A stretch of 64,000 nt of DNA. It comes from Taxillus chinensis (Eukaryota; Streptophyta; Magnoliopsida; Santalales; Loranthaceae). The translations under genes and the position numbers were made by a program. The stretch is taken from the NCBI GenBank assembly GCA_023512835.1, contig CM042088.1:12330078-12394077 (forward strand). Reading direction: 5' to 3'. Shown here one piece after another: positions 1 to 47,517 of this stretch; the stretch's first letter is position 1; every line of letters begins with the position of its first letter. The notes below the pieces were generated by a model, which did not search any database, was not told where the DNA came from, and saw only the letters and a list, made by a program, of their open reading frames with translations.

Positions 1-348
1 AAAATTTATTGGGGGCTACATTGCTCCCCTAGACTAACAAGACTACTCCATAATCATGACAAAAACAACAACAATCATAGGAAAGAACATGATTACGAGT
101 ACCGGGACAATAAAGGAAGACCCCAAGATGAACCAGGACTCCGGCCAAGGACTCCGGCGTCTGTTGCCCAAACTTCCTTGCCAAGGACAATCCGATCTTT
201 TAGCAATGGCTATAGCTCTTTTCAGAACTCAGATCAGATTTTCCCACTCAAGATGATTTACAATGCCTCCACAGACCCCTATTTATTGGTTTTAGTGGGC
301 CAAATTAGGGTTACAAAAGGTGTGCCCTAATTATAAATGTGGTCACAG

Positions 349-368
349 CCAAAACGACGTCGTTTTGG
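349..368. promoter_or_regulatory. Perfect 20-bp ACGT palindrome in the Athila LTR
   Basis: The core AAAACGACGTCGTTTT, extended by CC and GG, reads the same on both strands. The same palindrome is at 11960-11979 in the other LTR. ACGT-core palindromes are typical plant bZIP binding sites; binding here is inferred. Near-palindromic relatives occur in the Tekay-type LTRs. Confidence 0.5.
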
Positions 369-491
369 TTAGTGACACTAATCGATGTTCTAGGCGAAAT
401 AAAACTCAAACTACACCAAATTTGACCCCAGTTCTTTAGAGAAAAATGATTAAAACAACAAAATACATCATTTGGAGCGCAAACATGCTTG

Positions 492-640
492 CACGTGAGA
501 ATGCACGTGAGAAGACCCTTTTTCACGTGCAGCTCCAATTTGACTCAAATTTGCTCCAAAGCTTCCTTTTGAGTTGTAGAAGGCATCCATGCAATAAAAT
601 CCTTGTACGTGAGAATGCACGTGAGAAGGCTTTTCACGTG
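492..640. promoter_or_regulatory. G-box (CACGTG) cluster in the Athila LTR
   Basis: Five CACGTG hexamers (492, 504, 524, 618, 635) and one TACGTG (606) lie within 150 bp. The unit GCACGTGAGAATGCACGTGAGAAG occurs in two forms about 115 bp apart. The matching stretch of the 5' LTR is about 12103-12250. In element orientation the cluster lies upstream of the LTR TATA-like box, as expected for a U3 enhancer. Function is inferred from known bHLH/bZIP G-box binding. Confidence 0.5.
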
Positions 641-1001
641 CACCTTGATTTTGCCTTCATTTTGCTTCCATCTTCTTCCTATAGCTTCCTTGTGAGTTGA
701 TGGAGTGATTTAGCCAAAGTGTGTGGGAAAAGGTTGCTCCAAAACCTGCCAAAAACACTCAAAAAGTACCACTATACACCAAACAGGGTCTTCCTAGGGG
801 TTAGAGCAAATCTGTCGAAAATAACATCCAAGCTCTGCCCGTGAAAACACGCTTTTCACGTGCACACCTACCTTTGGCCAATCAGTCTGAAATTTCGGTG
901 GGCGCTAGCTGGCATCTTCTAGAGTCTTCTTTGGTCTGCACGTGAAAATGATGGAGCACTTTAAGAGGGTTAAATTCGTCTTTTCCCCTTGTGACGAATC
1001 A

Positions 1002-1011
1002 CTATAAATAG
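1002..1011 (+). promoter_or_regulatory. TATA box of the Athila extra ORF
   Basis: CTATAAATAG lies 82 bp before the ATG at 1093, followed by a pyrimidine-rich leader. Two G-boxes (857-862, 939-944) lie upstream. The start codon context (GTCATGG) is favourable. The copia copies of the homologous gene have a similar layout. Promoter activity is inferred. Confidence 0.5.
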
Positions 1012-1092
1012 GGATGAGTTCCAAGCTTCAAACTCACATCTCATACTTTCTTCTCCTTTCTTGCTGAACGCAAAATTCTTCTCTGATTAGTC

Positions 1093-3302
1093 ATGGTGCA
1101 CACAAGGAGAGCCCGCCAAGGAGAAGGCAGTCCTGAAGCCTCTGCCACCTCTATGCCTTCGGCATTGAGAGATGCCGACACCATCTTCGTGGGGAATGTG
1201 CTTGATTGGGAGATCCTGGAGTCCTCCACCCTTGACTCGGATCGAAGAAATTATGACCAAGCCGCAGGCGTTGGGATTGCGACGGTTAGTATGCGCCGTG
1301 CGATTTGTATTACCCTGCCATGTTAGAATTCTATAATTCGGTCTATGTCAATGAGGAAGATGATGAGATAATTGGGGAGGTTCAAGGTGTCTTAATTTCT
1401 ATTTCCCCGCTTTGTTGAGAGATTGCTTTGATCTGCCAAATCCCATGCATGCAAAGCCTGCATTGACCTTAGGAGAATATGGTAGAGCTTTACGGTATAA
1501 TAAGGAATTTGGGAAACGTCGGCAATTTACGAAAAACGGATTTCACGGGAAATACCGTTGCCTTGCCAATTTGGTAGGGAGGTGCTTATCGTTACAAACT
1601 AGTGGCGTAGACTCAGTCCCTAAATCCCATTTGGAGTTTATGTTTTGCATCGATCGCCGGTTACACATTGATTGGGCTGCGGAAATTTTTAAATTGTGGA
1701 AACGGGATATTCATAAATGCTTATATGGTCGACTACTTAGCATGCTTCGCAATATCAATATGGTCATCTTAGTGCTCAAGTAGTCCCCATTGTTTTCCTG
1801 GATAACTTGCGGTTACAAGTTCTCCACCCAGAGGGTGCTTTAGGAGTTAGCTACAAGGGCAAATGGGGAGATAGTATCCACGTTGCACCACGCCTTCACG
1901 TCATAGCGTGCATATGGAGCGACCCACGGAGCGCTTTCGGACACTTCCACTCCCATGAATGCCCGCCGACAAAGACATTTTCCAGTTGATCGCCATGTAC
2001 ATGCGTTCAATGTTCACAAGGAGGAAATCTACAATTTCTTCCAAGGCATCGATGGCCAAGTTATCGGTGAAGTTGACGTTCTTAATTGGGCTTTCACTAA
2101 TGGCCACATCACGAGACTTCACTGGATGAGATGCTCGAGTACATCACTCAAGCTCAACAAGCAACGTCTAATCCATCTGCCCGACCATGGGAAGCCCCGG
2201 AGCCAACTCCTGCTGCTTCTTATGAAGACTTACGGAAGCAACCGCTCAACTACAAGAGGCACAAGCGGAAACCGTTCGGAGATCGGGCTGCTGAAGAAAA
2301 ATCAAACTCTCATCCTCAAAGAGCAGAAGGAAGTCAAAGGGTGCTCGGTAAGATCCGGAAAGCCCTGGGGAAAAAGAAGAAGACAACTCCTACACCTCCT
2401 GTGGAGGATCCATTTGATGCACCGTCACCTCCAGATACGGAAGATGCTTGCGCATAGCGAAGAGACACTGGAGTATCCACGAGTATCCGCAAGAGGCGGA
2501 GCCCTACACCGCGTCACCCTTCCCTCCAGCAGTCCGGTTTATTTCCCACCACCAGCGGGGCCCGGCTCTTCACGGGCCCTAGTTCCCTTAATTCAGCCGT
2601 TGCAATGGTGGTCTGGCGCATCTTCCGAAGCTCCCCAGGAAGATGACCTAGGGGAGCCCGTTTATATTCATCTTCATCCGGCCCTCTCCACTGCTGATGC
2701 CACAGCTGCTTTTCAGCAATTTACTTATGGAGACACCTTGCAAGCCCGTTTTACACGTGATTTAGAAGTCTTCACGTCATCTTATTTACAGCGTATCCTA
2801 GCTGATAAGTATTTATCTTCCGATGACGTTGACTTATTCTGCCGTACGATGCGACATGTGGTGGAAGCCGAGCCCAACGACTACCCTATGACTCAGTACA
2901 CTTCTATCATGCTGTGTGAGATTTATGAGCAGCCGTTAGAGGAACATATCTTCCGCCGGCGGATGAATGGAGCTGCAGAAGGACATCGCTCTTGGCACCA
3001 GGTCCACGAGGTTCTTATACCGGTCCTCCTTGAACGACACTTTGTACTCTTGCGGTTGGACCTCGACCGTGGGCCATGCCGTCCTTTATGACCCGAGCCA
3101 AGCCCATGGGTTTTCCACACGAAAGAAGAAGCTGGTCCATGGTTTCTTGAAAAAAATCAAAACCGCACTTCGAAAAGAAGGGTCGTTGACATCCAAGTTG
3201 CCTCTGGTGCACTTCAATGAAATGGAGCTTCCCCAACAACCTGATCAATTCGGTTGTGGGATTTTTGTCTCGCTATTATTTGATAGCTCTATTACAGCAT
3301 AA
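1093..3302 (+). pseudogene. Athila extra 3' ORF: N-terminal YRC domain plus Ulp1-like protease
   Basis: A broken gene of about 2.2 kb in the env-like position. It starts at ATG 1093 (MVHTRRARQGEGS) and changes frame at least four times. Residues from 1412-1783 contain GKYRCLANLVGRCL and then IDWAAEIFKLW, matching the copia extra ORFs and resembling the N-terminal domain often annotated as a putative plant transposon protein. A basic, Pro-rich linker lies at 2131-2457. The C-terminal part (2460-3302) looks like a C48/Ulp1 cysteine protease: His in RHFVLLRLDLD (codon 3038-3040), Asp in LYDPSQ (3090-3092), Gln-Gln before Cys in QFGCGIFV (Cys codon 3255-3257). All catalytic residues are present, but the His and the Asp/Cys are in different frames. 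Its role in the element is unknown; SUMO-type deconjugation would be an extrapolation. Confidence 0.7.
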
Positions 3303-4751
3303 GGATACTTGGGCACTCACAGGAGAAACCTCGGCTGACTTTGTCGCACGTCTTCGACGAATGGTGGCCCATGTTATCTTCTACTATAGCCTTCCCACCA
3401 ACCGGTAACGCTCCTTTTCCTTTTTACTTTTTCCATGCTCTGAGGACATCGCTTCGTTTAAGTATGGGGGGGGGGATTTCCTTGAACCGGTTGCTTGTTT
3501 GGTTGCTGCATGCGTTACTTTTATTTTATGTTTTTGCTTCGTGGATTGTTTGTTTTGCCTGTGAGGTGCAATGGCTACCAAGGTATGACAATTCTGGTTG
3601 CCTATACTGACCACCTTAGTATCTTGTTGTGATAAAGATGTTTCACTTGTTAAGGTGTGTTATAAGTTAGTTGAGCATGTCTTTACTTGTTGAATGATAT
3701 CACCATGATTTTGGAGCTGACGTTTGAATAGTAAGCTGAGCATGTTATGTTAGGATGAGCTTTGTAAACCCTGAAGTTGAGTGCAGAATAGGCATATACT
3801 TTTTGAGAGCACCATTATCTTACCTTTGAGTGTATTTTATGGGTTATTGGGTTATCAATTCGCTCTTAATATTCATTACTCGCTATTTGATAGTTGGAGT
3901 TACTTAGGCATAAGAAGTACCTGTTTGTGCTCAGTGTTTGGTGTATGATGTTAGCGATTCCAGTATTCTCGCTCAGTTCTAGCTTGTTTAAAAAAAAAAC
4001 AAAAAAAAAAAGGGGCTTGTGTGAGGACAATAGCAGAGTGAATAATCCATCAAGGGAGAGCATAAAATGCAACCTTGTAAGGTTATTACTAAAAATAAGT
4101 GTGAAAAAAAAGAAATCAAAAAAAAAAAAAAAAAAACAAAAAAAAAAAATTGTTTGCCGAATAAAAGCCACAATGGCTTACTGTTTCATGTGTTTTTGTT
4201 TTCATGTTGCGGCCATAATGGCTAAGTTGTTTGTCTTGCAATTTGTTTCACAAGTGTGAGCTTCCATCTTTAGCTCCAAGTGTTGGTCCAAAAGTAGACT
4301 AGAGGGTGTGTTTCCCTTGACGAGCACAATGGGGATCTCTTATGTTTACGTGGCAAAACTTACTCAATAGTTAGTAGTGGGTGAAAGAGTAAATCCTTAG
4401 CTGCTAGGCATTGATAGTAGGGCCTGAAAGGAGAGAAAAGAAAGTGACATTTAAGTGAGGCTACTCTAACCTTGGTGCGGACTTTCAGGGGGAGCTAAGT
4501 TCAATTTATCCTGGCATGTTTGCTTCTATCTGGACTGTTAGTAACGATATTACATGGTTGTTGGACTTAATAGTAAGGGCATGTTTTGATTAACTTATGA
4601 TTCATTTTTAGCTATTGGAATGTCTACTTCATCATGATAGAAATGTATGCCTTGGGAAACCATGCCTCTCTTGTTTGTTAGTTTATTCATTCTTTTCCGT
4701 TTGATCGTGTGTTTATTTCTTTTTGCTTGAGGACAAGCAAAGGTTCAAGTA
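3303..4751 (+). other. Athila 3' noncoding region
   Basis: No coding sequence recognised. It contains A-rich runs at about 3989-4010 and 4106-4150, which create spurious Phe- or Lys-rich frames. Near its start is an oligopurine tract (3461-3476) that resembles the real one at 4752. The long noncoding stretch between the extra ORF and the LTR is normal for Athila elements. Confidence 0.6.
3461..3476 (+). other. Upstream polypurine-tract-like sequence
   Basis: AGTATGGGGGGGGGGA follows GCTCTGAGGACATCGC. The real tract at 4752 has the parallel context GCTTGAGGACAAGC then AGTATGGGGGGAA. The two are 1.29 kb apart. It could be a second plus-strand priming site or a relic of a duplication. Confidence 0.5.
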
Positions 4752-4762
4752 TGGGGGGAATT
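4752..4762 (+). other. Polypurine tract before the inverted Athila LTR end
   Basis: TGGGGGGAATT lies directly before TGATAACGTGC, which is the LTR start. The LTR at 12510 begins with the same bases on the minus strand. This is the site where plus-strand DNA synthesis would be primed. Confidence 0.75.
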
Positions 4763-4855
4763 TGATAACGTGCATTTATGCCGTTATCCTATACCTTATA
4801 TAGGGTGTTTTAGCGTAGGTTTTGTACCTATTTGCATGTTATTGTCGACAGATTT
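4763..4855 (+). repeat. Inverted fragment of the Athila LTR start (93 bp)
   Basis: Starts TGATAACGTGC and matches the reverse complement of 12418-12510 with about two substitutions. It stops after GACAGATTTG. Together with 1-827 it covers the LTR end, with about 20 bp represented twice. Confidence 0.85.
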
Positions 4856-5324
4856 GACAGGCTAATATAGGGTGTTTTATGCCGTTATCCTATACGTGAC
4901 ATGCCGATTCTCACGGCAAGCTGGTTGACACCCTGAATGAAGCCCAATGATGTTGAAATTTGACAGGCTAATATCCCATCTCACAAGGACAAAACGTGTC
5001 GGTTAGTGGGCCCAAAATACCATCATATAATCTAGAACTTCATCTCCATGGTTTGGCAAGAGATTGGAGTGGGCCCCCTCTGATTTAATTTAACCGAATT
5101 TGGTTGTGGGCCTGAGAAAATGTAGTTGTAGTTCCGATACACAGGCCCAAGTAAGCCCAAGCTTAAAGAAGCTCCATCAAGGAATTTGGGCCTAGGCCCC
5201 GGTTCAAATGTTGCTAATAAGAGTTAAAACAAAACAGATATGCACTCCCTACGGACTATGGGTTAAAACACACAATAACACTATCCCAATAAAATAAATA
5301 GCATAAAATAAAAAGGAAGAGAAA
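4856..5324. other. Breakpoint filler and Athila post-pol spacer
   Basis: The 16-mer TTTGACAGGCTAATAT occurs at 4853-4868 and again at 4959-4974. Between them are shuffled pieces of the LTR start (TAGGGTGTTTTA and ATGCCGTTATCCTATAC, 4867-4895). This looks like templated filler at a repaired break. From about 4975 to 5324 I see only noncoding spacer downstream of minus-strand pol. Confidence 0.5.
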
Positions 5325-8300
5325 TCACCATGGGTTGCCTCCCATGAAGCGCCGAGTTTTGGTCTTAGCTTGACCGTCCCCTCTGTCAAGTTGTGCTCGA
5401 GTGAAATGATCAACCTCCTTAACATGATCCTGCATGTAGTATGGCTTCACACGCTGACCGTTTACTTTGAAAATTTGTCCGGAGGTTGATTGGAGTTCAA
5501 CACTACCATATGGGAACACCTTTGTAACAGTGAAAGGCCCCATCCATTTAGATCGCAACTTCCCAGGAAAGAGTTTAAGTCTGGAATTAAAGAGGAGCAC
5601 CTTCTGCCTGGTTCAACAAGAGAGGGGCTGATCTTCTTATCATGTCCGAGCTTAGACCTCTCCTTGTACAGCCTTCGCACTCTCATAGGCATTGAAGCGA
5701 AATTCCTCCAACTCATTTAATTGGTGCAATCGTAGTTCAGCAGGCAACATTGGGATCCATGTTCAGCTTTTTAACCGCCCAAAATGCTTTGTGTTCCAAT
5801 TCAACAGGCAAGTGGCGGGCCTTTCCATACGAGAGACGATACGGAGACATTCCAATGGGCGTTTTGAATGTTGTGCGATAAGCCCACAACGCCTCATCGA
5901 GTTTTAAAGCCCAATCTTTTCGGTTGCCTCCCACTGTCTTTTCCAAGATGTGCTTGATCTCACGGTTGGAAACTTCAGCTTGACCGTTTGCTTGTGGATG
6001 ATAGGCTAAGGTGCGCCTATGTTGCACTCCATATTTGTTTAAGAGTTTGTCGAAAAGCTTATTGCGAAGTGACTCCCTTCATCACTAATAATTGCTCTAG
6101 GTGTTCCAAACCGGCTGAATATGTTGCGGCGAAGGAATTTGGTAACCACTTGAGCATCATTCTTCCTAGTGGGTATAGCTTCAACCCACTTCGAGAGGTA
6201 ATCAACAGCCAGAAGGATGTAAGAAAACCCATCCGATGGTGGGAAAGGTCCCATGAAATCGATTCCCCATACGTCAAAAAGTTCGACCGGCATAATGCCG
6301 GTTTGGGGCATCTCTTGCTTCCTTGTAATCCCTCCTGTTCGTTGACACCGATCACATGTCTTAACAAAGGTGTATGTGTCCGTGAACATGGTTGGCCAGG
6401 AAAACCCACTTTGTAGGATCTTTGCCACCGTCCTTTGTACTCCTAAATGGCCAGCATAGTCGGATGAATGATAATGCGTCGGATGCTGTCCACTTCCTCT
6501 TCTGGCACACATTTTCCGATGATCCGATCAGCACATAGCCGGTATAGAACAGGCTCATCCCAAATGTATCTTCTTGCATTAAAGAGGAACCTCTTCTTTT
6601 CCTGATAAGTGAACTCGCAGTACATAGTCACATGCATGGTAGTTCACTATATCAGCAAACCATGGCGTCTTTGCTTCGGCTACAAAGAGCTGCTCATCGG
6701 GGAAGGTGTCGAAATAGTAGCACCTTGAGTACTACCTTCCCCTAGCTCGAGCCTTGACAAATGGTCTGCCACAAGTGTTAGAAGTCCCCTTCAAGTCTTT
6801 AATCTCCAGATCAAACTCTTGGAGTAACAAAACCCATCCGATCAACCTGGGTTTTGCATCCTTCTTGCTGAACAAATATCTCAGGGGCAGCGTGGTCGGT
6901 GTAAACAATGACCTTAGTGCCTAGAAGATATGACCGAAACTTATCACAAGCAAACACCACAGCAAGTAACTCCTTCTCTAGTAGTGTAATTGAGCTGGGC
7001 CTCATTGAGTGTGCAACCGGCATAATATATTGCCCTGAAAATTTTGTCCCGTTTCTGCCCAAGCACCGCTCCGACTGCAAAGTCACTTGCATCACACATC
7101 AGCTCAAAGGGTTGTGACCAGTCGGGAGCCACTATCACCGGTGCTGAACTGAGCTTCTCTTTCAACATTGTAAAGGCCGGAAGGCAGTCTTCCGAAAATA
7201 TGAAAGGAACATCCTTCTCTAAAAGCATGCTTAGAGGCTTGGCAATTTTTGAGAAGTCTTTGATGAACCGCCGATAAAACCCTGCATGACCCAGAAAAGC
7301 TCCGGATGCCCTTCACATTAGTGGGAGGAGGTAGACTCTCAATGGTGGAGATCTTTGCTCTATTTACTTCCAACCCAGTCACGGACACTCTATGCCCAAG
7401 GACGACTCCTTCCTTGACCATGAAGTGACACTTCTCCCAGTTCAAGACCAGATCCTTTTCCTTGCATCGGACTAACATGGTTTCCAGATTTCGGAGGCAG
7501 ATGGAAAAAGTTGAACTGAATACCGAGAAGTCATCCGTAAAGACTTCCATAATGTCCTCCACTAACCCTTGAAAAATTGCCATCATACACCTTTGGAAGG
7601 TAGCAGGTGCGTTGCAAAGACCAAATGGCATACGCCGGAAAGCATACGTGCCAAAAGGGCACGTGAATGTAGTCTTCTCTTGATCTTCCGGGCAACCGCT
7701 ATCTGGTTGTATCCAGAATAACCGTCCGTAAAAACAATAATATGGGTAGCCGCCTAACCGATCTAGCATTTGATCAATGAAAGGTAACGGAAAGTGGTCC
7801 TTACGCGTGGCTTTATTCAGCTTGCGATAATCAATGCACACGCGCCACCCGGTCACTGTGCGGGATGGAATAAACTCGTTCTTCTCATTGCGTATCACCG
7901 TCATGCCACCCTTCTTGGGAACCACTTGCACTGGACTAACCCAGGAGCTATCTGAAATGGCATATATGATGCCTGCTTTCCTCCACTTCAGAATCTCCTT
8001 GCCAACGACTTCCTTCATTGCAGGATTGAGCCTGCGTTGGCGCTCTGACGGAGGAGTATAAGACTCCTCCATCGGATCTTGTGCATGCAGACCGCTGGAC
8101 TTATACCTTTTATATCATCCAGAGACCACCCCAGGGCCTGCTTATGCTCCCTTAAGACTTCGAGTAGCTGTTTGGTTTCTTCTACGTTAAGGACGCAGCT
8201 ACTATCACAGGATAACGCCCTTGTGTATCCAAGAACTTGTACCTCGGATGTTCGGGAGTTGCTTCGGAACCGGCAACGGTTCCGTGATTGCCGAGGATTC

Positions 8301-8885
8301 AGTTGAGGATTTCAAGACTTCATAAGTCTCTTTCGGTTCCACCTCCGCAAAATCCACCTGCCGCAATTCGTGATCCAAGCTTTCGGTGATCAAGCTCTCT
8401 TCAAAAAAACGTCCACGAATTCAGCAATCCGATCAATCCAATAACAGCTGGAATGATCATTCGCCTTGCGCATCGAACGCTCCATGTTGAACACCACTGC
8501 GTCTTCATCCACACGCAGCGTCAACTCCCCTGAGTTTACATCGATCAAGGCCCTTCCGGTACTCAGGAATGGCCTTCCAAGAATCAATTGGACTCCTTTA
8601 TCTTCTTCCATTTCCAATACAACAAAATCCACTGGGAAGATAAAGCGATCCACCTTGATTAAAACATCTTCAATAATGCCCGCCGGCTTTCCTATCGATC
8701 GGTCGCAAATTGTAAAGATATGGAAGTGGGCTTTATTCCTGTCAAGCCCGGCGCCGATAGATGGACATTGGCATCAGATTTATACTCGCCCCTAAGTCAC
8801 ATAGGGCTTGCTCCAATTGCGAGGTGCCAATGGTACAGGTCAGCGTGAAACTACCCGGATCTTTAAGCTTGGGTGGTAGCTTGTG
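5325..8885 (-). pseudogene. pol: Athila pol: protease, RT, RNase H, integrase
   Basis: Polyprotein region read from high to low coordinates, with several frameshifts. The protease has CDLGASINLMP (about 8800-8830) and LILGRPFLSTGRALID. RT (8072-7104) shows [28 protein letters not shown] and FTDDFSVF, with Thr where Met or Ile is usual before the Asp pair. RNase H has LMCDASDFAVGAVLG and VIVYTDHAA (7228-6811). Integrase (6637-5737) has the H-H-C-C zinc finger (CDRCQRTGG) and the D-D-E residues in [19 protein letters not shown] and [12 protein letters not shown]. The end near 5325 has [14 protein letters not shown], the usual Athila integrase tail. Product would be cytoplasmic and then nuclear replication enzymes. 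Nonfunctional as written. Confidence 0.85.
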
Positions 8886-10859
8886 CTAAACCACTGCACT
8901 AATGTCATTGGTGAGAGCTACTATCTCACAATCAGTGTAACTTCTCCTCTTGGACAGTAGATCCTTTAGAAATTTGACATATCCAGGCATCTGTTCCAAG
9001 GCTTCTATGAATGGGATGTTCACCTCCAGCTTCTTGAAGACATCTAAAAATTTCTGGAACCGAGCATCTAATTTCTGTTTCCTCGGCCTTTGAGGATACG
9101 GCATAGGAGGTTTATACGGAGCGGGAGAGCTAACTTCAGTGACGGATTGTCGGTTGACTACTCCCAACCTTTTCCGTCCGGTCCTTACGTTGCTCGAAGA
9201 TCCCCTTCTTTAGCTTCCTCCTGGGCAAGCCGTTCGGACTCCTCCTTGGTTGGCTTGATTTTCTTCTCTCCACTGGTAGTTCTTTCCCACTTCTAAGCAT
9301 TATAGCTTTGCATTGCTCCCTTGGGTTGACCTCCGTATTGGTTGGGAAAAGTGTTTGATGAAGATGGCCTAACCGCATTTGCTAACCGGCCAATCTGCTA
9401 CTCGATATTCTTCATGGCAGCCCCAAGATCCTGGGACGACGTGGTAAGGGACTCAATCCTTGTCTCCCCCCTTACTCATTCGTCGGTTGCTTGCTTAGCA
9501 AATTGATAAAAGAAGTTCCGCATCTCTTCATCCTTTGCCTTCTCTTTGTCTTCCTCCTTCGTTGAGGCATCTTTTGGAACCCAGGAGGAAGTTGTGACCG
9601 AGAATGTTCTCCATACTGTGTTGCTCCAGAGCAGAACCTTATTCTCGCCTTTGCCATAAGTAAGGCCGTTGTTGAAATTGGTGAGGTCCTCCTTGATTCT
9701 GAAAGTTGTTGGGCCGAGGAGGATTCTGCACTGGTTTGGATTCCGATATTGTCACTGAAATCCTCCACCTCGATTCCCAACATATTGGGCTTCTTCGTAT
9801 AGCTGGATCGTAGCAAAGATCTTCAAGAATCGCCTTAGGTGGTTCAGTTCTGCCCTCCATGCGAACAGCCATTACTGACATTTGCTCTGTCAATAACTCC
9901 ATCTTCCTTGTCAACTCATCGAACTTAGTTGAATTTGACGAATTTGATACTACAGCCACCGGCTCAGCTCTAGGGCGTCTGTCATTGGACCATTGGCAGT
10001 TTGACAACGCCATTCGCTCTATAAGCTCCACTGCTGCAGAAGGCTCCATCATCATGAACGCTCCTCCAGCCGGCCGCATCTATCATGCTCCTTGTATTTG
10101 CGTGCGGACACTGCAGAAAAAGATTCGACTTGTAACCATTCTTGGCCTGCCATGATTAGGACACCTCCTCACCAAGTCTTTAAACCGCTCCCAGGCCTCG
10201 TATAGCGACTCATCACCATGCTGGGTGAATTGATTTATCTGGCTCCTTAGATGAATAACTCTTGTTGGTGGAAAGTACTTGGAGAGAAATTTCTCCACCA
10301 TTTGGTCCCATGTGTGTATGCTGCCAGCAGGTAGGGACTGGAACCAACCAAGAGCTCGGTCCTTCAGGGAAAACGGGAAGAGTCGCAGCTTAATGGCGTT
10401 ATCCGAGACTCCATTAATTTTGATGGTGTCGCAAATTTGCAAGAATCGCGCTAGATGGTTGTGTGAATCATCTAGCGCCGAGCCTCGGAATGCATCTTGC
10501 CCAACCATTTGCAGTAGCGCAGGCTTCAGCTCGAAGTTGTTTGCTTGGACCGGCACCCTTCTAATGCCTGAATACTCATCCGATAGTACAGGTCTAGCAT
10601 AATCCATGAAGGCCCTTGGCTGATAACCTCCTTGGCCATTGTGTCCCTGATCTTCCCTTGCTCTGTTTTCAGCCATGATTTCTTCACACAAGGTATGTAA
10701 GCCTTCCAACTCGCTGTTCACCGCAGCTAATACCCTCTCGAGCTCTTCACTGCTCTCGCAATGTTCGTTCGATTTCGGGATCGTATGGTAATAGCTCACC
10801 CCTGGTGTGACGCATACACAGAGGAATTTTCTCAAACACCTAAGGTGCACTCCTGACAC
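8886..10859 (-). pseudogene. gag: Athila gag
   Basis: The best piece is 10859-10083, with QICDTIKINGVSDNAIKLRL, LKDRALGWFQSLPAGSI, TWDQMVEKFLSKYFPPT and GDESLYEAWERFKDLVRRCP, the standard plant retrotransposon gag domain. The reading frame then shifts; 10079-9639 holds ELTRKMELLTEQMSVMAVRM, a probable coiled coil. 9378-8886 has the linker EVNPREQCKAIMLRSGKEL and YPQRPRKQKLDARFQKFLDV, diagnostic of Athila. The true start may lie below 10859, because the first residues before MDYARP are not typical. Gag forms the particle that packages element RNA. Confidence 0.8.
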
Positions 10860-10983
10860 GTAGCAAAAACAAAAAAGATACCAGGTAACACCGTACTAGC
10901 AAAAGTACAAGAAAATAAAATTCCATACCACAAATAAACTTGAGCACCTAATGTCACTTAGTCCTAACAACGTTTGGCGTGCC

Positions 10984-11001
10984 TCCCCGGCAATGGCGCC
11001 A
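10984..11001 (-). other. Primer binding site, tRNA-Asp type
   Basis: On the minus strand TGGCGCCATTGCCGGGGA follows the 5' LTR after a 6-bp spacer. It is complementary to the 3' end of plant tRNA-Asp apart from one base (expected CGTTG, seen CATTG). Confidence 0.8.
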
Positions 11002-11007
11002 AAAACT

Positions 11008-12510
11008 TGACCCGCATAAATTATGTCTGAAGGTTTTGCAGTAAGTGCACTGGTCAAGTAATAAAATGGAGTATTAAGACTCCAGTTGTCGAACCCACAG
11101 GGAGGTAGCTAATGCTGTTAAGCAGCAAGCACTAAGCTAACAAGTTGATTTTATGTCCTGGACAATTTGATGTTTGTTGTGCAAATATTTTGAACAAAAA
11201 GATATTAAATCAGAATGTTGGCAAGCGGTTGGTATAGACATCTAGGGTCACAATGTTTACCACCCAATCGATTGTACTAATCTGGTTATGGCTCTTGTTC
11301 TTGATTTATGTTCTAGTTCAAGTTCATGTTGATTATCTCCTACCTATCTTACATTTGGTCCATGCTAAGATAGATTTAAGGCTTTTATCCCATTTGGTCC
11401 ATGTGAATAAAAGTGATCAAGGTAGATAAACAATCTAATAGTTGCAGACTTGGTCCATCATACAATATTAAATCTAATTCACTAGTGTTCCACCCTAGAC
11501 AAGGGCTAAGATTACCTAATTATGCATAAACTAGGCATTTCCATTCAAGCAAGTGAATTAAACAAGAACTAAATTCTATTTTATTGAACAACCATAACCA
11601 AACTGAATACAATTTATTGGGGGCTACATTACTCCCCTAGACTAACAAGACTACTCCATAATCATGACAAAAACAACAACAATCATAGGAAAGAACATGA
11701 TTACGGTGCCAGGACAATAAAGGAAGACCCCAAGATGAACCAGGACTCCGGCCTCCAAGGACTCCGGCGTCTGCGCCCAAACTCACTCCTTGCCAAGGAC
11801 AATCCGATCTTTTAGCAATGGCTATAGCTCTTTTCGAACTCAGATCAGATTCTCCCACTCAAGATGATTTACAATGCCTCCACAGACCCCTATTTATAGG
11901 TTTTAGTGGGCCAAATTAGGGTTACAAAAGGTGTGCCCTAATTATAAATGTGGTCGCAGCCAAAACGACGTCGTTTTGGTTAGTGACACTAATCGATGTT
12001 CTAGGTGAAATAAAACTCAAACTACACCAAATTTGACCCCAGTTCTTTAGAGGAAAATGATTAAAACAACAAAATACATCATTTGGAGCGCAAACATGCT
12101 TGCACGTGAGAATGCACGTGAGAAGACCCTTTTCACGTGCAGCTCCAATTTGACTCAAATTTGCTCCAAAGCTTCCTCTTGAGTTGTAGAAGGCATCCAT
12201 GCAATAAAATCCTTGTACGTGAGAATGCACGTGAGAAGGCTTTTCACGTGCACCTTGATTTTGCCTTCATTTTGCTTCCATCTTCTTCCTATAGCTTCCT
12301 TGTGAGTTGATGGAGTGATTAAGCCAAAGTGTGTGGGAAAAGGTTGCTCCAAAACCTGCCAAAAACACTCAAAAAGTACCACTATACACCAAACAGGGTC
12401 TTCCTAGGGGTTAGAGCAAATCTGTCGAAAATAACATGCAAATAGGTACAAAACCTATGCTAAAACACCCTATATAAGGTATAGGATAACGGCATAAATG
12501 CACGTTATCA
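11008..12510 (-). repeat. Athila 5' LTR (1503 bp)
   Basis: Bounded by TGACCCGC on the left and CACGTTATCA on the right, so it has TG/CA ends on the element strand. It carries the palindrome at 11960-11979, the G-box cluster at about 12103-12250 and a minus-strand TATA box at 11891-11898. The right edge abuts copia coding sequence. The primer site is at the left edge. Confidence 0.9.
11891..11898 (-). promoter_or_regulatory. LTR TATA box
   Basis: TATAAATA on the minus strand, flanked by CC and GGGG, downstream (in element orientation) of the G-box cluster and the ACGT palindrome. Transcription would start about 30 bp further on, near 11860. Confidence 0.45.
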
Positions 12511-14273
12511 ACCACCTAATCTGGAAGAGCTTCAAATTGTTCAAGATCATCCATCACATGCACAGAATTACAGATGGACTTGAAACCATCCCTCAGATGT
12601 GATTGGTGATCCTAATGTTGGTGTAAGAACAAGAGCAGCCACCTTCAACATGAGTCTTTACTCGTGTTTTCTATCTCAAATAGAACCAAAGGTGGTAGAT
12701 GAAGCTCTTCAGGATTCGAATTGGATAGAAGCCATGCAAGAAGAGTTGAATCAATCTAAGAGAAATAATGTGTGGACCTTAGTACCAAGGCCTAAGTCTC
12801 AGCAAGTCATTGGCATTAAATGGGTGTTCTGGAACAAGCTTGATACGGATGGAATAGTAATCCGGAACAAAGCCAGGCTGGTAGCCAAAGGATATCGTCA
12901 AGAAGAAGGAATAGATTATGATGAGACCTTTGCTCCGGTAGCAAGACTTGAGGCAATCCGAATGTTTCTGGCGTATACTTCATATGAAAACTACATAGTT
13001 TATCAAATGGACGTCAAGAGTGCATTCCTGAATGGAGATCTTCAAGAGGAGGTATACGTTGAACAACCTCCCGGCTTCATTGAACCTAAGGCAGGACATT
13101 TTGTCTACAAGCTTCTGAAAGCTTTATATGGTTTGAAGCAATCTCCAAGAGCCTGGTACGACACACTGTCAAAATTTCTACTTGCTCATAACTTCTAAAA
13201 AGGGAAGATAGACACCACCCTATTTCTACGAAAAGAGAAAGGACACACTCTGATTGTACAAATATACGTGGATGATATCATTTTCGGATCAACGAATCCG
13301 AAGCTTTGTGAAGAGTGTGCTAAGTTGATGACAGGCAAGTTTGAGATGAGCATGATGGGATAACTGTCCTACTTCCTTGGAATAGAAGTTAAACAATTAA
13401 AGGAAGGAATCTTCATTAATCAAGCTAAGTACACTCGCGATCTTATTAAGAAGTTTGGTATGGAAGGTTCATCTCCCGTCAAAACTCCCATGCCTGGCTG
13501 CCAAGTTAGATCCCGATGTCGACGGCATATCGGGAAATGTGACCGACTACGGAGGGATGATCGGATCCTTGCTTGTATCTTACAAAGAAGTCGCCCAGAC
13601 ATTATGTTTGCAACTTGCATCTCGTGCACGATACCAGGGAATCCCAAGGAGTCATATATGCTTCATGTTAAACGGATATTAAGGTATCTCAAGGGAACAA
13701 TGAATTTGGGACTCTGGTACCCAAAGGAGTCTAACTTCACCTTATCCGGATACTCTGATGCCGACTTCGCTGGATGTCGCATCGACAGGAAGAGCACAAG
13801 TGGTCCATGTCGGTTTCTTGGAAATAGATTAATTTCATGGTTCAGGAAGAAGCAATTCCGTATCAACCTCTCTTCTGAAGCGAAATATATAGCTGCTGGG
13901 AGTTGCTGCGCACGCCTACTCCTGGATGCAAAGTCAACTTACCGACTATGGTTTCAACATGTCATCTATTCCACTCTATTGCGACAACACTAGCGCTATT
14001 GCTATCAAGAACAATCCTGTCATGCATCCTAAGACGAAGCATATTGAAGTCCGGTATCACTTCATACGTGATCATGTTCTTAAAAGTCACATCTCACTGG
14101 AACATGTTGCTACCGAAGATCAACTGGCCAACATTTTTACAAACCCCCTACCTGATGCAAGATTCTCTCGAACTACTCTTCCGTTTAGGTATGCTCGACT
14201 TTTTCGCATAGTTTCGCATTTAATTTACCCAACAAGATACTTACTATCGAAACATGGATTGTGCTTTTATTGA
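12511..14273 (+). pseudogene. pol: Copia pol fragment C1: RT and RNase H
   Basis: Starts in the linker that in copy C3 reads RWTQNHPSEQVI. RT motifs: [72 protein letters not shown] and the catalytic YVDDIIFGS near 13267. In-frame stops occur after LLAHNF (about 13196) and MMG (about 13362), and there is a frameshift near 13500. RNase H shows YSDADFAGC, SSEAKYIAAG and, in another frame from 13926, LYCDNTSAIAI and KTKHIEVRYHFIRD. Protease and integrase are absent because the Athila element interrupts the gene. Nonfunctional. Confidence 0.85.
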
Positions 14274-15886: not shown

Positions 15887-16944
15887 ATGGCACCCAGAAT
15901 CTCTCTTTCCGGCGTTAATCCTGGCCATCTGGTTGATTGGAATGCTGTCTCTAATCATCCGGATTGGTTTTTCCAGCTTCGCCCTCTCCTTGAAGCCTCG
16001 CATATACTCAACCTGGTCTCCAATCCCGTCGATCTTCTTATCGACGACATCATTGAGAATTACCAACGGATTCGCTGCACCACCGATTCCATAACCTCTT
16101 ATGTCCGCGGTGAATCCATCATCATCACTCCGACCGTTCTCCGCGCTGCTCTCCACCTACCTCTTGGTGAACCACGGCGCCCAGGATGCTGATCCAATGG
16201 CGGCTTCTATGGGTTGCACACAAAAAGGCAAGGAATACAAGGTGAAATCCTTCCAAGGTCGCTATCGATGTATGGCGACCATCTTGAGTCGATGCTTACT
16301 GGCTCGCACATCCGCCCTCGACTCCGTTCTGTACGACCTTCTCCTGGCCATGTATGGCGTTTTTGAAGGTCTTCCGATGGATTGGGGGATGTTCTTGTTT
16401 CGATTCTTTGCAGAATGGTCCCAAGAACCATTCCTTCGGGTGCATCCTCGCATTGTCTTCCGGCATCTTAATCCGGACCATTTCGCCCGATATGATGCTG
16501 TTCCATTTCCTCCGGCTTATTACCTTCGTTATCTTACGCCGGATGGGAACATGACAGCCCGCCGACCATCTGCAGCTCTCCGCATACTCCCTGCCTCGGA
16601 ACAACAAGGCAGTTCAGTTGGTGACCCCTCCGACGCCCAAGCCCCCGACATCGCTTCGCACCCCGATCCTCCTGGATTCGGTCCGTTGCAAGACTCTCTC
16701 ATTCCCGGGCCTCCCGGCAGACGGCGTCCGTGCCGAACCGTCCGAGGTTGCGGGGCCATCTCGGCGCAGTGCTCCTAAAGCCGTTTCCTCGGCTCTCTCT
16801 GTCGCGATGTCCCCACTCCCTCCACCTCCGCTAGTGCTTGCCGCGGTTGATACCGGGTTGCGGCCGCCATCGCCGATGTCCCGGCCTCTTCTCCGGAAGC
16901 CCCTTTGCCTCCCCTACCTCAACCCCGAGATTACCTTGACCATC
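15887..16944 (+). pseudogene. SIRE extra ORF C1, 5' part (YRC domain)
   Basis: Start chosen at ATG 15887 (MAPRISLSGVNPGHLVDW), the same start as in C2. The first frame runs to 16192, then shifts into KGKEYKVKSFQGRYRCMATI, SRCLLARTSALDSV and FEGLPMDWGMFLFRFFAEW, and shifts again near 16700. The YRC segment aligns with that of the Athila extra ORF. After a Pro/Ser-rich region the frame reaches LPQPRDYLDHLS and is broken by the inserted element at 16945. The gene resumes at 19549. Function unknown. Confidence 0.75.
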
Positions 16945-17191
16945 TGTGAGGACCTTCCCTGAGGTATGAGTTATGTTTTATGCATTTGTTTTGCATATGT
17001 TGTTTGAGATATGGTTTAGCTCGTTATTGTTGGATTTTGTCAGCCCTTTGGCTTGTTGCGAGTTGCATTGCACATGTGTGATCGGTGATCATGTTTGATG
17101 TTTTGTTGTTGGGACATTGAGCTTGAATTTTGCTATGTCATTTGGGCATGTGTTTTATTTTCGAGGACGAAAAGTCCTAAGGTGGGGAGGA

Positions 17192-19548
17192 TGTAAAGAC
17201 TCATATTTGGGTAGTCTTGAGAGATAGTCATTCTATGGGAATGTAACTATATGGACGGTAGTGTAGCCGTCAATGTGAGCATTTTGACTGTACTTGGGCC
17301 CGATTCCGAGTCGGGGTCCCGTTTGACCCGATTGTTGACTTTTCGGGGTTTATTGGTTGACTTTGCGTTTAAGCGGTCATTTGAGTGTAATAATATCTGT
17401 TTAGTGTTGTGCTCGTCATTTCGAGCGTTTTGACAGTAATTGGGCTCAATTTGGAGTTCGTGACCTCGGGAGGTCAATTATTGCGTTCAGGTCAATTATT
17501 GCTGGAAGGCCAATGATTGGTAACAGTATATATATAATTAAGAACTGCCTTATCTCTTTAATTGCCAATTATTGGTGCGTGCATGTTTGAGCAAGAGAGA
17601 GAGAGAGAAGGTGAAGAGCGTGAAGAGCTTTCTTGGCGATTTTGGGGCGATTGGAGCTCGTGGATCGCAATAAACCTTTCCAGGTAGGTGTTCTTAACTA
17701 TCTTATCTCGATCCTATCTTTGAATATGTGATCTGTGGTTGTATGAGTGTGTATTTTATGAGGGTTGAGAAGTCAACCATGGAAGTCTAGATTTAGATCT
17801 AGATGAATATATGATTTGTGTGTATTTCTGCTGTTGTTGTGCGAATTAGAGGCGTTTAGGACGCGTTTTGAGGTAAATATCGCAGTTTATTGCGTAAAAC
17901 ATGTGTTTATGAGTGTCTGGGGGTCACTGGGTTGCTTCCAGACGGAGAACAGGCCAAAAAACGACGATGAACAGACTCCGGGCGAGTTTTAGAGTCGACG
18001 GACGATCAGCGTACTGTGGAGTCAGACTTAAGTAGTCAGCAGCTATGGAGTCAGCAGCTATGGAGTCAGCAGCTTCGTCGTCAGCAGCTATGGAGTCAGC
18101 AGCTGTGGAGTCAGCAGCTATGGAGGAGTTAGTCCGGATCAGTAGTCCGGAGTAGTTAGTCCGGATCAGTAGTCCGGAGTAGTTAGTCCCGATCAGTAGT
18201 CCGGAGGAGTTAGTCCGGATCAGTAGTCCGAAGCAGTTAGTCCGGATCAGTAGCATCAATCCGTAGCATCAGTCCGGAGCATCAAGTCCGTAGCATCAAT
18301 CCGTAGCATCAGTCCGGAGCATCAAGTCTGTAGCATCAATCCGTAGCATCAGTCTGGAGCATCAAGTCCGTAGCATCAAATCCGTAGTAGTGAAACAGTG
18401 TTCCGCACTTAAGTTACAATGTAAATAACGAAATACCCCCCATTTGGATTCAAAGAAAAATACTAGAAAAATTAATTCCCACTATTTCAAAATGTGAAAA
18501 TTGGGTTTTAGTGTAAAATCTCGGAAAAACCCAAAAGTTCGTAGTGGTGAATTTTTGAAAAGTGGGGTTAGACGTCTCAGAAAAATCCCCAAAAATCAGA
18601 TTATCTTAGTTATGCTATGGGAACCCAATGTCGGGACTTTTGATTTGAAGAAAATAGCTACTATGGGTACTTCCTTCATAAATCAAGGATTGAGGATTTA
18701 CTTGTGAAGACTGACTACAGTTCTAAAGGAAAGGTTGAGAATGACATGCCATACTCATGTTAGTATGTTGGTGTGAGGTATTGGGGCATGGACTCCGTGA
18801 CTTGTTTGGGTTCTCACTGTGATGCACCGATGGTGCTATGTGGGTGACGTGGCAGGCATATGCACCGATGGCAGGCCTGTGTGGCGACTGTGGCCGGGCA
18901 TATTGCGCTGTGGACAGGCTAAGGTTTGAGTTGAGCCGTTGAGCTCGTGGAGCTAGGGCTAAGTGCCCTGAGCTGGGATCCCATGGAGGATCGCGGACAA
19001 GTTGTCCTGTATAGGCAGGCTGAGTCCTGATGTTTGTTTGCAGGCTGAGTCCTGTTGATTGTGCACACTACACAGTGCACGAGTACACGAGCATGTAGTA
19101 TAGACTTGTATATCTTGCATGATGTGGAGTGTTGGGGTCACCTACTGTGCTTGTCGCTCACCCCTACTTGTTGTTTACCTTTTTCAGGTGTGACCCGAGA
19201 CTAGTGGAGGACTTTCTTCCAGGAGGACGCCCACTACTCTGATGTATGATACAGTTATATTCTGTATTATTTTATGTTTGTATCCCGGACATGGGTCCGT
19301 GGACAGTTGTATTTGCATACTGTTTGTGATGTGATGTCTGTATGACTGTTTGACTTATTGTATGCATGATGATGTATGGGAAAGTATAGGATTACCCTTG
19401 ATGTATGACTGTACAAGGTTGCATATTTGAGGCAGCACCCGCGGTGTAGTCTCCATTGGTGCTAGTCACCAACCCCTTGACCTTTCGGGTGCGGGCAAGG
19501 GGAAGTCATGTTCCCAGTTTCGGGTTCCCTGGAGTTGGGGGCGTGACA
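17192..19548 (+). repeat. Tekay-like LTR (about 2.36 kb)
   Basis: TGTAAAGACTC start and GGGGGCGTGACA end, shared with the LTRs at 26081-28302 and 29092-31152. It has a TATA-like run at 17527-17536, a GA microsatellite at about 17593-17609, the splice-donor-like CAGGTAGGTG at 17681-17690, and tandem arrays at 18030-18385. Confidence 0.85.
18030..18385 (+). repeat. Three adjoining tandem arrays in the LTR
   Basis: First, about six 15-bp units of the type GTCAGCAGCTATGGA. Second, about four 27-bp units built on GTTAGTCCGGATCAGTAGTC. Third, 13-14-bp units of the type GCATCAGTCCGTA and variants. The arrays merge into one another and share AGTCCG and CAG/CAT elements, which suggests serial expansion. 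They are absent or short in the related LTRs of this window. Confidence 0.8.
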
Positions 19549-21241
19549 CCATCTCTCCGCCGACACCTTAACGGACCTATGGCTCCGTTTTAGCCTTGCC
19601 CACACTGCCTCCATTCCTGACAACGATCTCCGGGTGTTTTACACACGCCATACCCAATCCCCGGAGACAATGATCATCTGGAACTTGGATCACGGCTTTC
19701 TTACGCCGGCCTCCATTCCAGATGTGGCGTTCACTACTCCCTCCAGCCCAGTACATTTTGCCAGGGGTCCTTCTCCTACTATGGCTGGCCCCTCTTCTCC
19801 TGCTGCCGCCATTCCCGTGGTTGACCTTTCTGGTCAAAGCGGGTCAGCTGCTCCGGATGCCTCTGATGCTCCGGATGCCCCTTCTGCCGCTGCTGCTGCT
19901 GATACTCCTGCGGACTCCTCTGCCCAGCGCACTCCCGCTCCTGTTCATGCGGGGGAGTCCTCCAAAGCTCCGGAGTTGGTCCTTGGGCGTGCCTCGTTTG
20001 GCACGGTTCACTCCGACACTGTGCTCTCCGCCCAGCTGGACCGACACGCCCAGGCTCAAAGCGCCCAAATTTCCGCCATCGCCGCCAAGGTTGATGCACT
20101 CGGCGCCCAACTTCTCTCCGCTCTCACTGACTCCTCCACTTCAATGGAGCAGAAAATGGATCTCGTCGCCTCGTCCGTCCATTCATTGTCCACCTCCTTC
20201 GCGGACCTAGCGCACACGATGGCTCGTCCTCCCGTTGCTTCCCGGCGATCTGCCAAACCGGGGGAGAAAGTGTCATCTGATCCGTCTGCCCCTTCTGCTC
20301 CTTCTGCACCACAACCATCTACTCGGACTGAGAAGCGGCCTGCCACTTCAGTGCTTCAGGGAGTTCAAATTCCCAAACGAAGCCGCTTCTCTCAACCAAG
20401 CTCCTATACTGCAGCTCCAGCTCCTCCTCCATCCTCCTCACCCACAGCCGACACCTTCCTCCCATCATATGCGGCGTTTGACCCTTCTGATGCGAATGGA
20501 AGTGTTCGCAAAGCAATGAAGTCCTATGCAGCGTCTTCTGCTGAGAGAAGATGTCTTTCTGAAATGTACCCTTTCTCCCCGGATGACATTAAGATTCTTT
20601 GTTCGGAGAAAGGACTCTTTACTACAGAAGACATTGACAACTTCTCGAGGGCTGCTAAAATAGAGATGAGGCTGTTTCCATCTCTATACAAGGATGGGCA
20701 CTTGTTTGAAGTTCTACCGTGTTGGAATGAAGGCTATCTTCCCAGTGTGGATCTAATTCAGTCCTTCATCGACGGAACTGCTGAGGATAGCAAGCCATGG
20801 AAAACTCTCTCAACTATCCTCATTCCATACCGGCTCATGTCGCCACACTTCATGATGGCTGTCTTCATGATTCAGTCCAAGCAAATGATTCTCATTGATT
20901 CTCATCAGATAGTGGAGCACTTTGTAAGAAAGAATCAATGGGAACCACTGTGTCTCAGGCTGACTGAAGCTGTGAAGAAAGCCGGTTTATATGAAGAGTT
21001 GGGCATCACACCCTTGGGTCCAACTGAGAAGCTGAAGGCGACATTCCGGGGCAAGAAGCAAGTGCCACAACAGCCGGATGGAGATAGCTACGGGGCCTTT
21101 GTCTGTTACTTCATCAAGTCATTTTTGACTGTGGACAAATCGTGGAGCCAACACACTACTTATACGATGAAGCAGACAATGGAGCTTAGAGAGAAAGCAG
21201 CAACTATGATCTTCAAGTATAGTAAGCCTTATGTTCCTTAG
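19549..21241 (+). pseudogene. SIRE extra ORF C1, 3' part (coiled coil and Ulp1-like domain)
   Basis: Continues the gene broken at 16944 and stays in one open frame to the stop at 21239-21241. Order: SADTLTDLWLRF, a Pro/Ser/Ala-rich linker, a coiled-coil-like stretch (AQSAQISAIAAKVDALGAQ), then a Ulp1-like domain from FLPSYAAFD (about 20457). The His motif is SPHFMMAVF, the Asp motif LILIDSHQ-like (ILIDSHQIV), and the Gln motif VPQQPDGD. The residue at the catalytic Cys position is Tyr (codon 21089-21091, in SYGAFVCYF). So the domain is intact in length but probably without protease activity. The family's usual pattern is H-D-Q-C. Confidence 0.75.
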
Positions 21242-24659: not shown

Positions 24660-26080
24660 GCCCACCCCAAATAGGTCGGGACGAAAACCAGTGATTACAC
24701 CACTCACCCACAAAGACACCCCGCGTGCCCTCTGGTGTGAGAAACGTCATACGCCGTCGAAAACAATCAATCTTGGCCTCTACGGAAATCAACCAATCCA
24801 TACCCAGGATAACATCAAAATCATCTAACTCCATAATATACAAATCACATAACAGGTTAACACCCCCAAGTGTTACCCGACAAGCACGACAGATACTCTT
24901 AAGTATCACAATTCCACCCAAAGGTTAAGCAACCATCAGAGACTGACTAACTGTCTCCTGGTCTAACTCCAATCCAACCACTATAGCATACAAAATAAAA
25001 GAATAGCACCAGTATCAATCAAAACTGAACAAATAGTATGAGAAATGATGATGGTACCTCTCACCACTGAAGGTCCTGGTCCTGCCTCATCCACTGGTGT
25101 AACCTTTACCTCTCTGCTAGTAAGGGAAAAAGTCCTCCCTTGTGGCACACTGCCACTAGCCTGGCCCATTGGGGCCTTGCCCCACTGATCAACATGACCC
25201 TGTGCCTCCTGCTGACGCTGCTGCACCGCAGGTCGTGTCTGCGTGCTTTCTATTGGCTGCACTGACCTCTGAGACGGAGCCCCACTCCTCTATCCCTGCT
25301 CTCTCGGACGAGGACCTACATTGCTGGTCGAGCTAAGGGTAACACATTCCCTAGCTCCATGTCCCACCTTCCCGCATCGGAAGCATGTCATTTTTTTTCT
25401 CAAGCAGTCTCTCGACAAGTGTCTGGTCAAACCACAACTCCAACAAGTACCTGACCTCCGGCTGGCTGAACTCTCACGGGGTCCCACTGCCTGGCTTGAA
25501 ACCCTCTGCACCTGCCTCCTCTCAAGCTGAGCGGCACTGCTCTCCCTACTCTGCCTCTTCTTGCTCGGACCTACCGAACCTCCCGGTCTCTGGGTTCTCA
25601 CCTGATCCTGACCTCGCTCAATAATGAGTGCCTTATCACTGCCTTCATGTAGTTGGTCAACTGCATCGGTTCTAGCTTGTTTTTCAAAGATGGCCCCAAG
25701 CCCTGAATAAAATCCTACATCTTACGGGTTTCCTTCTCCCAAGCCTCAAGCGCAGAACGCCCTAAATCTGTGAAGTCTTGCACATACTCACCCACCGTCT
25801 GGCTACCCTACTGAAGCTCATGATACTCTCTCCGTCGGGCATACTATACCGACCTAGGAAAATACTCCCCAAAGAAGCGCTCCACAAACTCTCTCCAGCC
25901 CATCTGACTGCCATGGACAGCTCTAGTGGACTCCCACCACCTACGTGCGATACCCAACAGATAGTGCGTCGCCACTCGCACCCGCTCCTCATCTGGCAGC
26001 CCAATCAACTTAAAGATGTCCTCTGTCCACCTAATCCAGTCCTCGGCTGCCTCTAGCTGTGAACCATCCTCAAAAGTCCT
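24660..26080 (-). pseudogene. gag-pro: T1 gag C-terminal part and protease
   Basis: Gag continues as TFEDGSQLEAAEDWIRWTED, IFKLIGLPDEERVRVATHYL and ARRWWESTRAV, followed by REFVERFFGEYFP, the plant chromovirus gag core. Two CCHC knuckles follow near 25390-25460 (CWSCGLTRHLSRDC and CFRCGKVGHGAREC). The protease has SVLIDTGA near 25000-25020 and LDDFDVILGMDWL (about 24790-24830). Several stops and shifts, including around 25750 and 24935. It ends in sequence without recognisable chromovirus similarity near 24660. Confidence 0.8.
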
Positions 26081-29076: not shown

Positions 29077-29088
29077 GCTCTGATACCA
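29077..29088 (-). other. Primer binding site, tRNA-iMet
   Basis: TGGTATCAGAGC on the minus strand, 3 bp after the LTR end. It is the standard initiator-tRNA-Met primer site of plant chromoviruses and copia elements. Confidence 0.85.
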
Positions 29089-29091
29089 ACT

Positions 29092-47425: not shown

Positions 47426-47517
47426 TTAATTGATCTTTAACTTTAATTGACTGGTTTACTGTACATGCATGTAACCCCTAGAGGAGACTTCTCGAGTCAC
47501 CTTTGCGTCTCTTTGCG

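Follow-up and report, generated by a model that had tools for sequence, protein, structure and literature searches.

The extra genes that occupy the envelope-like slot of Athila (gypsy) and SIRE (copia) retrotransposons in Taxillus chinensis are, as judged from their sequences, homologous in both of their domains. This ancient gene probably encodes an accessory protease for SUMO or a SUMO-like protein, and not an envelope. The function of envelope-like genes in plant retrotransposons has been a matter of debate over several decades, and an extensive survey ascribed them to many unrelated sources. In this one genome, the slot is occupied many times over, in gypsy as well as copia elements, by a single homologous gene whose enzyme domain can be recognised. 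An open question is made testable, namely whether the protein cleaves SUMO (or a relative of it) and helps the element to escape silencing. Retrotransposons are linked in this way to the Ulp1-bearing DNA transposons of plants, whose carrier genes reportedly act against silencing. The slot, the N-terminal domain in Athila and the presence of Ulp1 in plant transposons are already known; the two-domain gene common to gypsy and copia elements appears to be undescribed in the literature that was searched.

Homology and genome-wide distribution of the extra gene

The window, which designates the whole stretch of 64,000 nucleotides that was analysed (C5:12330078-12394077), belongs to a genome of 521 Mb in 264 contigs. 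Its initial annotation had proposed that the extra ORFs of the Athila and SIRE elements share an N-terminal block, and had put forward a profile-profile comparison as one way to refute it. This comparison, of Athila-1 and Athila-2 rows with SIRE-A rows, bears the proposal out, with an E-value of 7e-24 for the N-terminal domain and of 2.6e-15 for the C-terminal domain, against 0.39 for a mismatched control pair of profiles (N versus C). The relationship can also be observed with single sequences. Since the Athila copy of the window is broken, the N and C domains of another Athila locus, L048, were used as tblastn queries against the window and the collected loci. Among the matches listed, the N domain retrieved SIRE copy B at 35543-34908 (27.9%, E 1.2e-17), copy C at 41170-40583 (26.8%, E 1.9e-14) and copy A at 16224-16553 (28.2%, E 9e-10), and the C domain retrieved copy A at 20591-21229 (25.5%, E 2.3e-14) and copy C at 39172-38561 (26.1%, E 1.0e-12). 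In copy B, the C domain (32.9-33.6 kb) is so damaged that the Athila query fails to match it (best E 0.94), and its link to the Athila version runs only via its SIRE relatives. The identity between the Athila and SIRE versions is about 25-30%.

The position and the strand of the gene were followed throughout the genome by scoring, for each search, at most the best 150 of 869 to 12189 candidates (6094, 4273, 10106 and 1700 in the first-look searches), with distances given to the nearest kilobase. The Athila and SIRE-A pairings rest on the best 150, 150, 150, 150 and 114 candidates and those of SIRE-B on the best 150 for each component; they count paired candidates, 85 of the 150 integrase (INT) matches having stayed unpaired in the first pairing. 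Among these best 150, Athila INT and N domain found within 16 kb of each other lie on the same strand in 62 of 65 pairs, and the N domain is located 2-3 kb downstream of INT in 58 of these 62; the three opposite-strand pairs include the copy of the window itself. Similar figures are obtained on the same scale for Athila INT and the C domain (63/66 on the same strand), for SIRE-A reverse transcriptase (RT) and the C domain (13/13, from at most the best 150) and, in SIRE-B, for RT with the middle module (21/22) or with the PF02902 domain (22/25), from the best 150 of each. The initial claim that a gypsy and a copia lineage both have a two-domain gene between their pol and 3' LTR is sustained by homology, slot and strand.

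The four copies listed at the outset are indeed homologous, and the occurrence of the gene is wider than this list: it is found in three sublineages of Athila, in two of SIRE and also in a few low-copy genes. In the Athila sublineages represented by L074 and L076, whose INT is 56-58% identical to that of the window, the extra gene is in sense orientation downstream of INT. In SIRE-B (L079), the gene is a single uninterrupted frame (1059 aa) situated downstream of an RT of SIRE type (RT 74% identical). The low-copy genes L077, L080 with L003, and L081 possess the N domain and the middle module, the C domain being found in L003. The surrounding 2.0-7.0 kb showed no gag-pol of Athila, SIRE or chromovirus type, and it is possible that they represent host ancestors of the gene or domesticated element genes.

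Domains of the encoded protein

The frames of 772 aa at the Athila-1 loci L047 and L048 comprise an N domain, a basic proline-rich middle and a C domain. The C-terminal part of the Athila protein is C48/Ulp1-like by profile score and by residue pattern. Indeed, the profile PF02902, whose curated cut-off is 20.7 bits, detects it with 34.9 bits (E 1.8e-8) in both L047 and L048, with 46.2 bits in Athila-2 (L076) and with 52.9 bits in Athila-3 (L074). The same profile reaches 53.2 bits at the SIRE-B gene C2:19029697, where the gene and RT lie on one strand. The scores of SIRE-A are distributed around the cut-off, L072 (21.4 bits) being above it and L069 (20.5 bits) and L070 (17.8 bits) below, and those of the pieces present in the window are all below it (E 0.0005-0.02). 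The Ulp1-like protease read by the initial annotation at the C-terminus can thus be retained for the three Athila sublineages, at 34.9-52.9 bits, and is less secure for SIRE-A, which stays near the cut-off at 17.8-21.4 bits.

Comparison with solved structures leads to SENP1 (E 1.9e-4) and Ulp1 (0.009) with an Athila-only profile, and to the same two proteins (5e-15 and 3.6e-12, respectively) with a mixed profile of 14 rows that includes the canonical Ulp1-like row L001; a single Athila sequence reaches SENP1 at an E-value of 0.014 only. A C profile restricted to SIRE-A gave nothing significant among the solved structures, the best match being a bacterial thiol protease at 0.23, and the SIRE-A assignment consequently leans on the near-cut-off Pfam scores and on homology to Athila, SIRE-B and L003. 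The sequence L001, used as outgroup, comes from a small unplaced contig and consists of a long open frame in which the canonical Ulp1 domain is complete.

Of the 48 Athila loci that cover the four catalytic positions, 43 have the canonical His, Asp, Gln and Cys. The 48 belong to a set of 60 loci, or 57 distinct copies because three pairs overlap the same copy, and this set is biased to intact copies since its members were chosen as best matches. In SIRE-A, the four residues are canonical in 4 of 6 sources; the catalytic Cys is replaced by Tyr in L073 and in copy A of the window, and the catalytic Asp by Tyr in L070. The homology of the catalytic domain and the His-Asp-Gln-Cys pattern are common to the extra gene and to the C48 proteases SENP1 and yeast Ulp1, which differ in being cellular genes devoid of a Transposase_32-like N-terminal domain. 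For the SIRE C piece, the 7995 best candidates of a large protein database contained no match at E <= 0.001, and the Athila piece had a single one (P0001, E 4.2e-4), with 90% identity over 16% of the query. P0001 is a protein of 300 aa predicted from a metagenome contig of 1005 bp and is probably plant DNA in the metagenome.

The N domain may be described as Transposase_32-like only, in the sense of a distant likeness. The profile PF20167 (Transposase_32) has a curated cut-off of 45 bits, and the Ulp1-bearing genes score 13.7-33 bits and L077 38 bits, all below it, with E-values of 1e-3 to 7e-8 for the Ulp1-bearing Athila genes and weaker scores in SIRE-A (best 21.5 and 21.1 bits). The sole locus that passes the cut-off, with 103 bits, is L075, an Athila relative without PF02902. 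A search of the N domain against solved structures produced no match up to E 10. In the KIU/VANC proteins of VANDAL elements, the N domain is DUF1985. This domain (PF09331) had no match in the genome, control genomes being equally silent, and is not among the Pfam matches of the extra genes. Athila-1, L076b, L077 and L081 contain basic clusters, possible nuclear signals; there are none in the SIRE proteins examined.

Function and origin of the extra gene

These sequence features agree best with a targeted protease that acts on SUMO or one of its relatives, which is the most likely role, and a target, a location and an effect may be proposed for it. The extra gene is transcribed in sense to gag-pol from between the integrase and the 3' LTR, and its product joins the Transposase_32-like N domain and the middle module, through a low-complexity linker, to a C48 cysteine protease (Ulp1/SENP type) at the C-terminus. 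The predicted protease would remove SUMO or a SUMO-like modifier from proteins of the host or of the element, the N-terminal domain presumably choosing the partner. Such deSUMOylation could help the expression of the element or the early steps of its replication, and might have an anti-silencing role. In yeast, transcription of Ty1 is kept down by Ulp1, a SUMO protease anchored at the nuclear pores, according to the available text of PMC8585004, and the SUMO state can therefore matter to LTR retrotransposons. The Ulp1-bearing VANC-type genes of VANDAL elements in plants are reported to counter silencing (PMC13317346, available text). An old deSUMOylase module exchanged between the two superfamilies, countering SUMO-dependent silencing as the retroelement counterpart of VANC/KIU, is a more specific scenario and an unlikely one at present; if it held, what many plant Sireviruses and Athila elements carry as an envelope-like gene would be this module and not an envelope.

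Several known systems are comparable to the present gene, as far as the accessible text of the cited papers goes. The KIU/VANC proteins of the VANDAL Mutator-like elements are alike in associating an N-terminal domain with a transduplicated Ulp1 and in the idea of an accessory factor (PMC13317346, PMC10398659), and differ in their carriers, which are DNA transposons. Ginger1 is also a mobile-element protein with a C-terminal Ulp1 or OTU domain, but it belongs to animal DNA transposons and its domain is fused to a gypsy-type transposase (PMC2836005). The 3' additional ORF of sunflower Athila elements, assigned to Transposase_32 (PF20167) and predicted to be nuclear, is alike in lineage, slot, sense orientation and broad N-domain family; no Ulp1 domain is mentioned for it in the accessible text, and L075 resembles this classical type (PMC11728184). 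The sense envelope-like ORFs of SIRE1, ToRTL1, Athila4 and Calypso share slot and orientation with the present gene and are described by membrane and coiled-coil features; neither a copia-gypsy homology of these ORFs nor a Ulp1 domain is stated in the accessible parts of the two sources (PMC4093653, PMC7264820). The former links SIRE-type envelope-like ORFs among legumes, the latter reports extra ORFs, some sense and some antisense, for which no relatives are known, and antisense Retand ORFs are treated in PMC11963269. A survey of plant LTR retrotransposons distinguished 45 groups of extra ORFs in copia and 314 in gypsy elements, including 3' forward ORFs of SIRE and Athila as found here, and suggests independent acquisition (PMC6317226); the term 'Ulp' is absent from its main text. 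On the whole, a Ulp1 domain in these elements or an Athila-SIRE homology is not reported in the accessible text of PMC7264820, PMC6317226, PMC4093653 and PMC11963269.

Other functions can be weighed against a SUMO-type protease. A true envelope-like membrane glycoprotein for cell-to-cell transfer, long proposed for Athila and SIRE1, would agree with the equal genomic slot and the sense orientation; such ORFs are called env-like in the accessible text of PMC7264820 and PMC4093653, and the classical ORF of L075, which lacks Ulp1, possesses a strong hydrophobic stretch (hydropathy maximum of 2.34, 31 windows at or above 1.6). The Ulp1-bearing proteins are nevertheless without a clear membrane segment: in those examined, and by hydropathy alone, no peak of 1.6 or more is found outside the C48 core. 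The maximum is 1.37 in Athila-1 and 1.50 in SIRE-B, and the higher peaks of SIRE-A and L074 (1.64-1.96) are inside the protease core, on the strand around the catalytic His, which makes an envelope highly improbable. These protease-core peaks might explain earlier readings of such ORFs as membrane proteins. Many copies are broken, including all those of the window, and this would suit a passive passenger, that is, a captured coding sequence with no function for the element. The dN/dS ratios, calculated for the extra gene alone, speak against it: they amount to 0.22, 0.18, 0.19, 0.16 and 0.35 in five SIRE-A comparisons and to 0.27 in one SIRE-B comparison, and such low values indicate that the gene has been kept as a protein. 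The linker yielded 0.14 at a dS of 2.9; between Athila-1 and Athila-2, dN is 0.41 (N) and 0.23 (C) and dS is saturated in both domains, hence the absence of a ratio. Together with the catalytic residues kept in 43 of 48 loci, with the long open frames (772 aa in L047 and L048, 1059 aa in L079) and with the presence of the gene in five element sublineages, these values leave the passenger quite improbable. Proteases of the C48-like clan process the own proteins of the virus in adenovirus. A second processing protease of this kind, acting on the element's own proteins as adenain does, would agree with the presence of adenain among the weak matches of the mixed profile (0.006), but the best structure matches are deSUMOylases and an aspartic protease already exists within the pol of Athila- and SIRE-type lineages; this function is improbable.

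The history of the gene is less readily deduced. In the N-domain tree, the Athila rows are grouped on one side of a branch supported at 72/79 (79/78 without the longest row), the other side containing SIRE-A, SIRE-B and the low-copy genes, and SIRE-B adjoins the low-copy genes with weak support (62/29 and 58/18). In the C-domain tree, Athila and SIRE are separated at 65/79 with very long branches. Neither the grouping of SIRE as one clade (AU p 0.21) nor a clade uniting Athila-1, Athila-2 and SIRE-A (p 0.30) is rejected, and the direction and number of transfers are not resolved by the trees of the two domains. A tentative possibility, short of probable, is that the ancestors of Athila and SIRE each captured a gene from a host family that already joined the N and Ulp1 domains. 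The low-copy genes L077, L080/L003 and L081 share the modules with no gag-pol within 2.0-7.0 kb and are placed on the SIRE side of the N-domain tree, beside SIRE-B, at the supports just given; independent acquisition of such extra ORFs is also argued in the accessible part of PMC6317226. These low-copy genes may, however, be stranded element genes, and an equal slot and orientation in two superfamilies would need a repeated coincidence. Another history would be a single capture in one superfamily, after which the other received the entire gene through template switching between co-packaged RNAs; the whole module order and the slot are common to both, and an exchange of env between Athila families by recombination is documented in the accessible text of PMC2410132. 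With both clades unrejected and low tree supports, such a transfer is rather doubtful, and any transfer would be old because the identity between Athila and SIRE is about 25-30%. The single captured gene, moved from one lineage to the other, that the initial annotation envisaged as one of two options is upheld as to homology; with the low identity, the several carriers and the low tree support, the move itself is a possibility only.

Copies of the extra gene in the window

The gypsy element at the left end of the window, which we take to belong to the Athila lineage, presents the gypsy order gag (10083-10859, Retrotrans_gag), RT (7104-8072, RVT_1) and INT (6039-6512, Integrase_H2C2 and rve), all on the minus strand. 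Its right (5') LTR occupies 11611-12510 on the same strand, its end having been located at 12510 and its extent by the repeat match to the left LTR, the remainder of which (1-831, minus strand, LTR from position 3) is 97.4% identical to 11611-12441. The two LTRs differ by a K2P distance of 0.016 over 827 sites, which at assumed substitution rates corresponds to about 0.6-1.1 million years. The extra gene (1093 to about 3405) is situated on the plus strand, antisense to gag, RT and INT of its own element. It is frameshifted and 94% collinear with L047 and L048, each open for 772 aa. With the domains of L048 as tblastn queries, the N-terminal domain was located at 1232-1869 and the C48/Ulp1-like domain at 2648-3405, in three frame pieces; PF02902 gives an E-value of 0.012 for the piece 2967-3299 alone.

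This antisense position is due to an inversion of that particular copy. The plus strand carries a polypurine tract at 4753 and the TG of an LTR start at 4763, and the 95 bp at 4762-4856 are the reverse complement of 12417-12511 (97.9% identity), from which it is deduced that 832-4856 has been flipped. On this sequence evidence, the Athila copy is rearranged by an internal inversion of about 4 kb (832-4856, now plus strand) that takes in the extra gene, the polypurine tract and the initial 95 bp of the 3' LTR; its two breaks fall within this LTR and between pol and the extra gene. About 24 bp are repeated at the inversion joint, around 807-831 and 4832-4856. The flip may also be an assembly error. 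The initial annotation, which placed this ORF in the envelope-like slot, had missed the antisense orientation of the window copy. An antisense gene comparable to those of Retand or Grande (accessible text of PMC7264820) was also considered for the Athila ORF, but the sense orientation of most other copies led to its rejection.

The remaining copies belong to SIRE. In SIRE-A copy A, on the plus strand, RT (12599-13198, RVT_2) is followed by an N-terminal domain in pieces (15887-16553, tblastn) and by a C48-like domain (20525-21235, tblastn and catalytic-residue alignment), in which the catalytic Cys is the Tyr mentioned above. Its extra gene is interrupted at about 16946-19547 by a 2.6-kb insertion, 82-91% identical to repeats found in opposite orientation at 26080-31151. 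Copy B, on the minus strand, consists of an N-terminal domain at 34908-35579 (tblastn) and a frameshifted C48-like domain at 32857-33553, with 54-68% to pieces of L072. Copy C, also on the minus strand, shows the copia order, with INT (46097-47389) upstream of RT/RNase H (45.4-44.5 kb), the whole at 44462-47389 being delimited by domain match, repeats and ORFs; its N-terminal domain (40583-41242, tblastn; PF20167 E 2.4e-4, below the cut-off) and its C48-like domain (38555-39265, sequence comparison including tblastn) follow. Several AGGGGGAG polypurine octamers mark SIRE elements, mostly near the 3' LTR, according to the accessible text of PMC2829016. The window contains 6 matches to this octamer for 2.1 expected; those at 14741 (plus) and 36691 (minus) are located between SIRE pol and the extra gene, and none was placed at a SIRE 3' LTR.

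A remnant of a SIRE-B-type extra gene at 47482-49310 (plus strand) comprises the middle module and the start of the C48-like domain, with 52% and 59% to the frame of L079; no N domain was found in it. A second copy of this remnant, at about 61498-63336 (plus strand), is contained in a 3.5-kb repeat of the same orientation (46556-50042 and 60527-64000, 97.8% identity), which may be a segmental duplication, a product of recombination or an assembly artefact. Another gypsy element, with RT at 55489-56028 (minus strand) and 2.2-kb LTRs that are 97.1% identical, extends over 50895-60526, and the second copy of the repeat starts exactly at the end of its right LTR.
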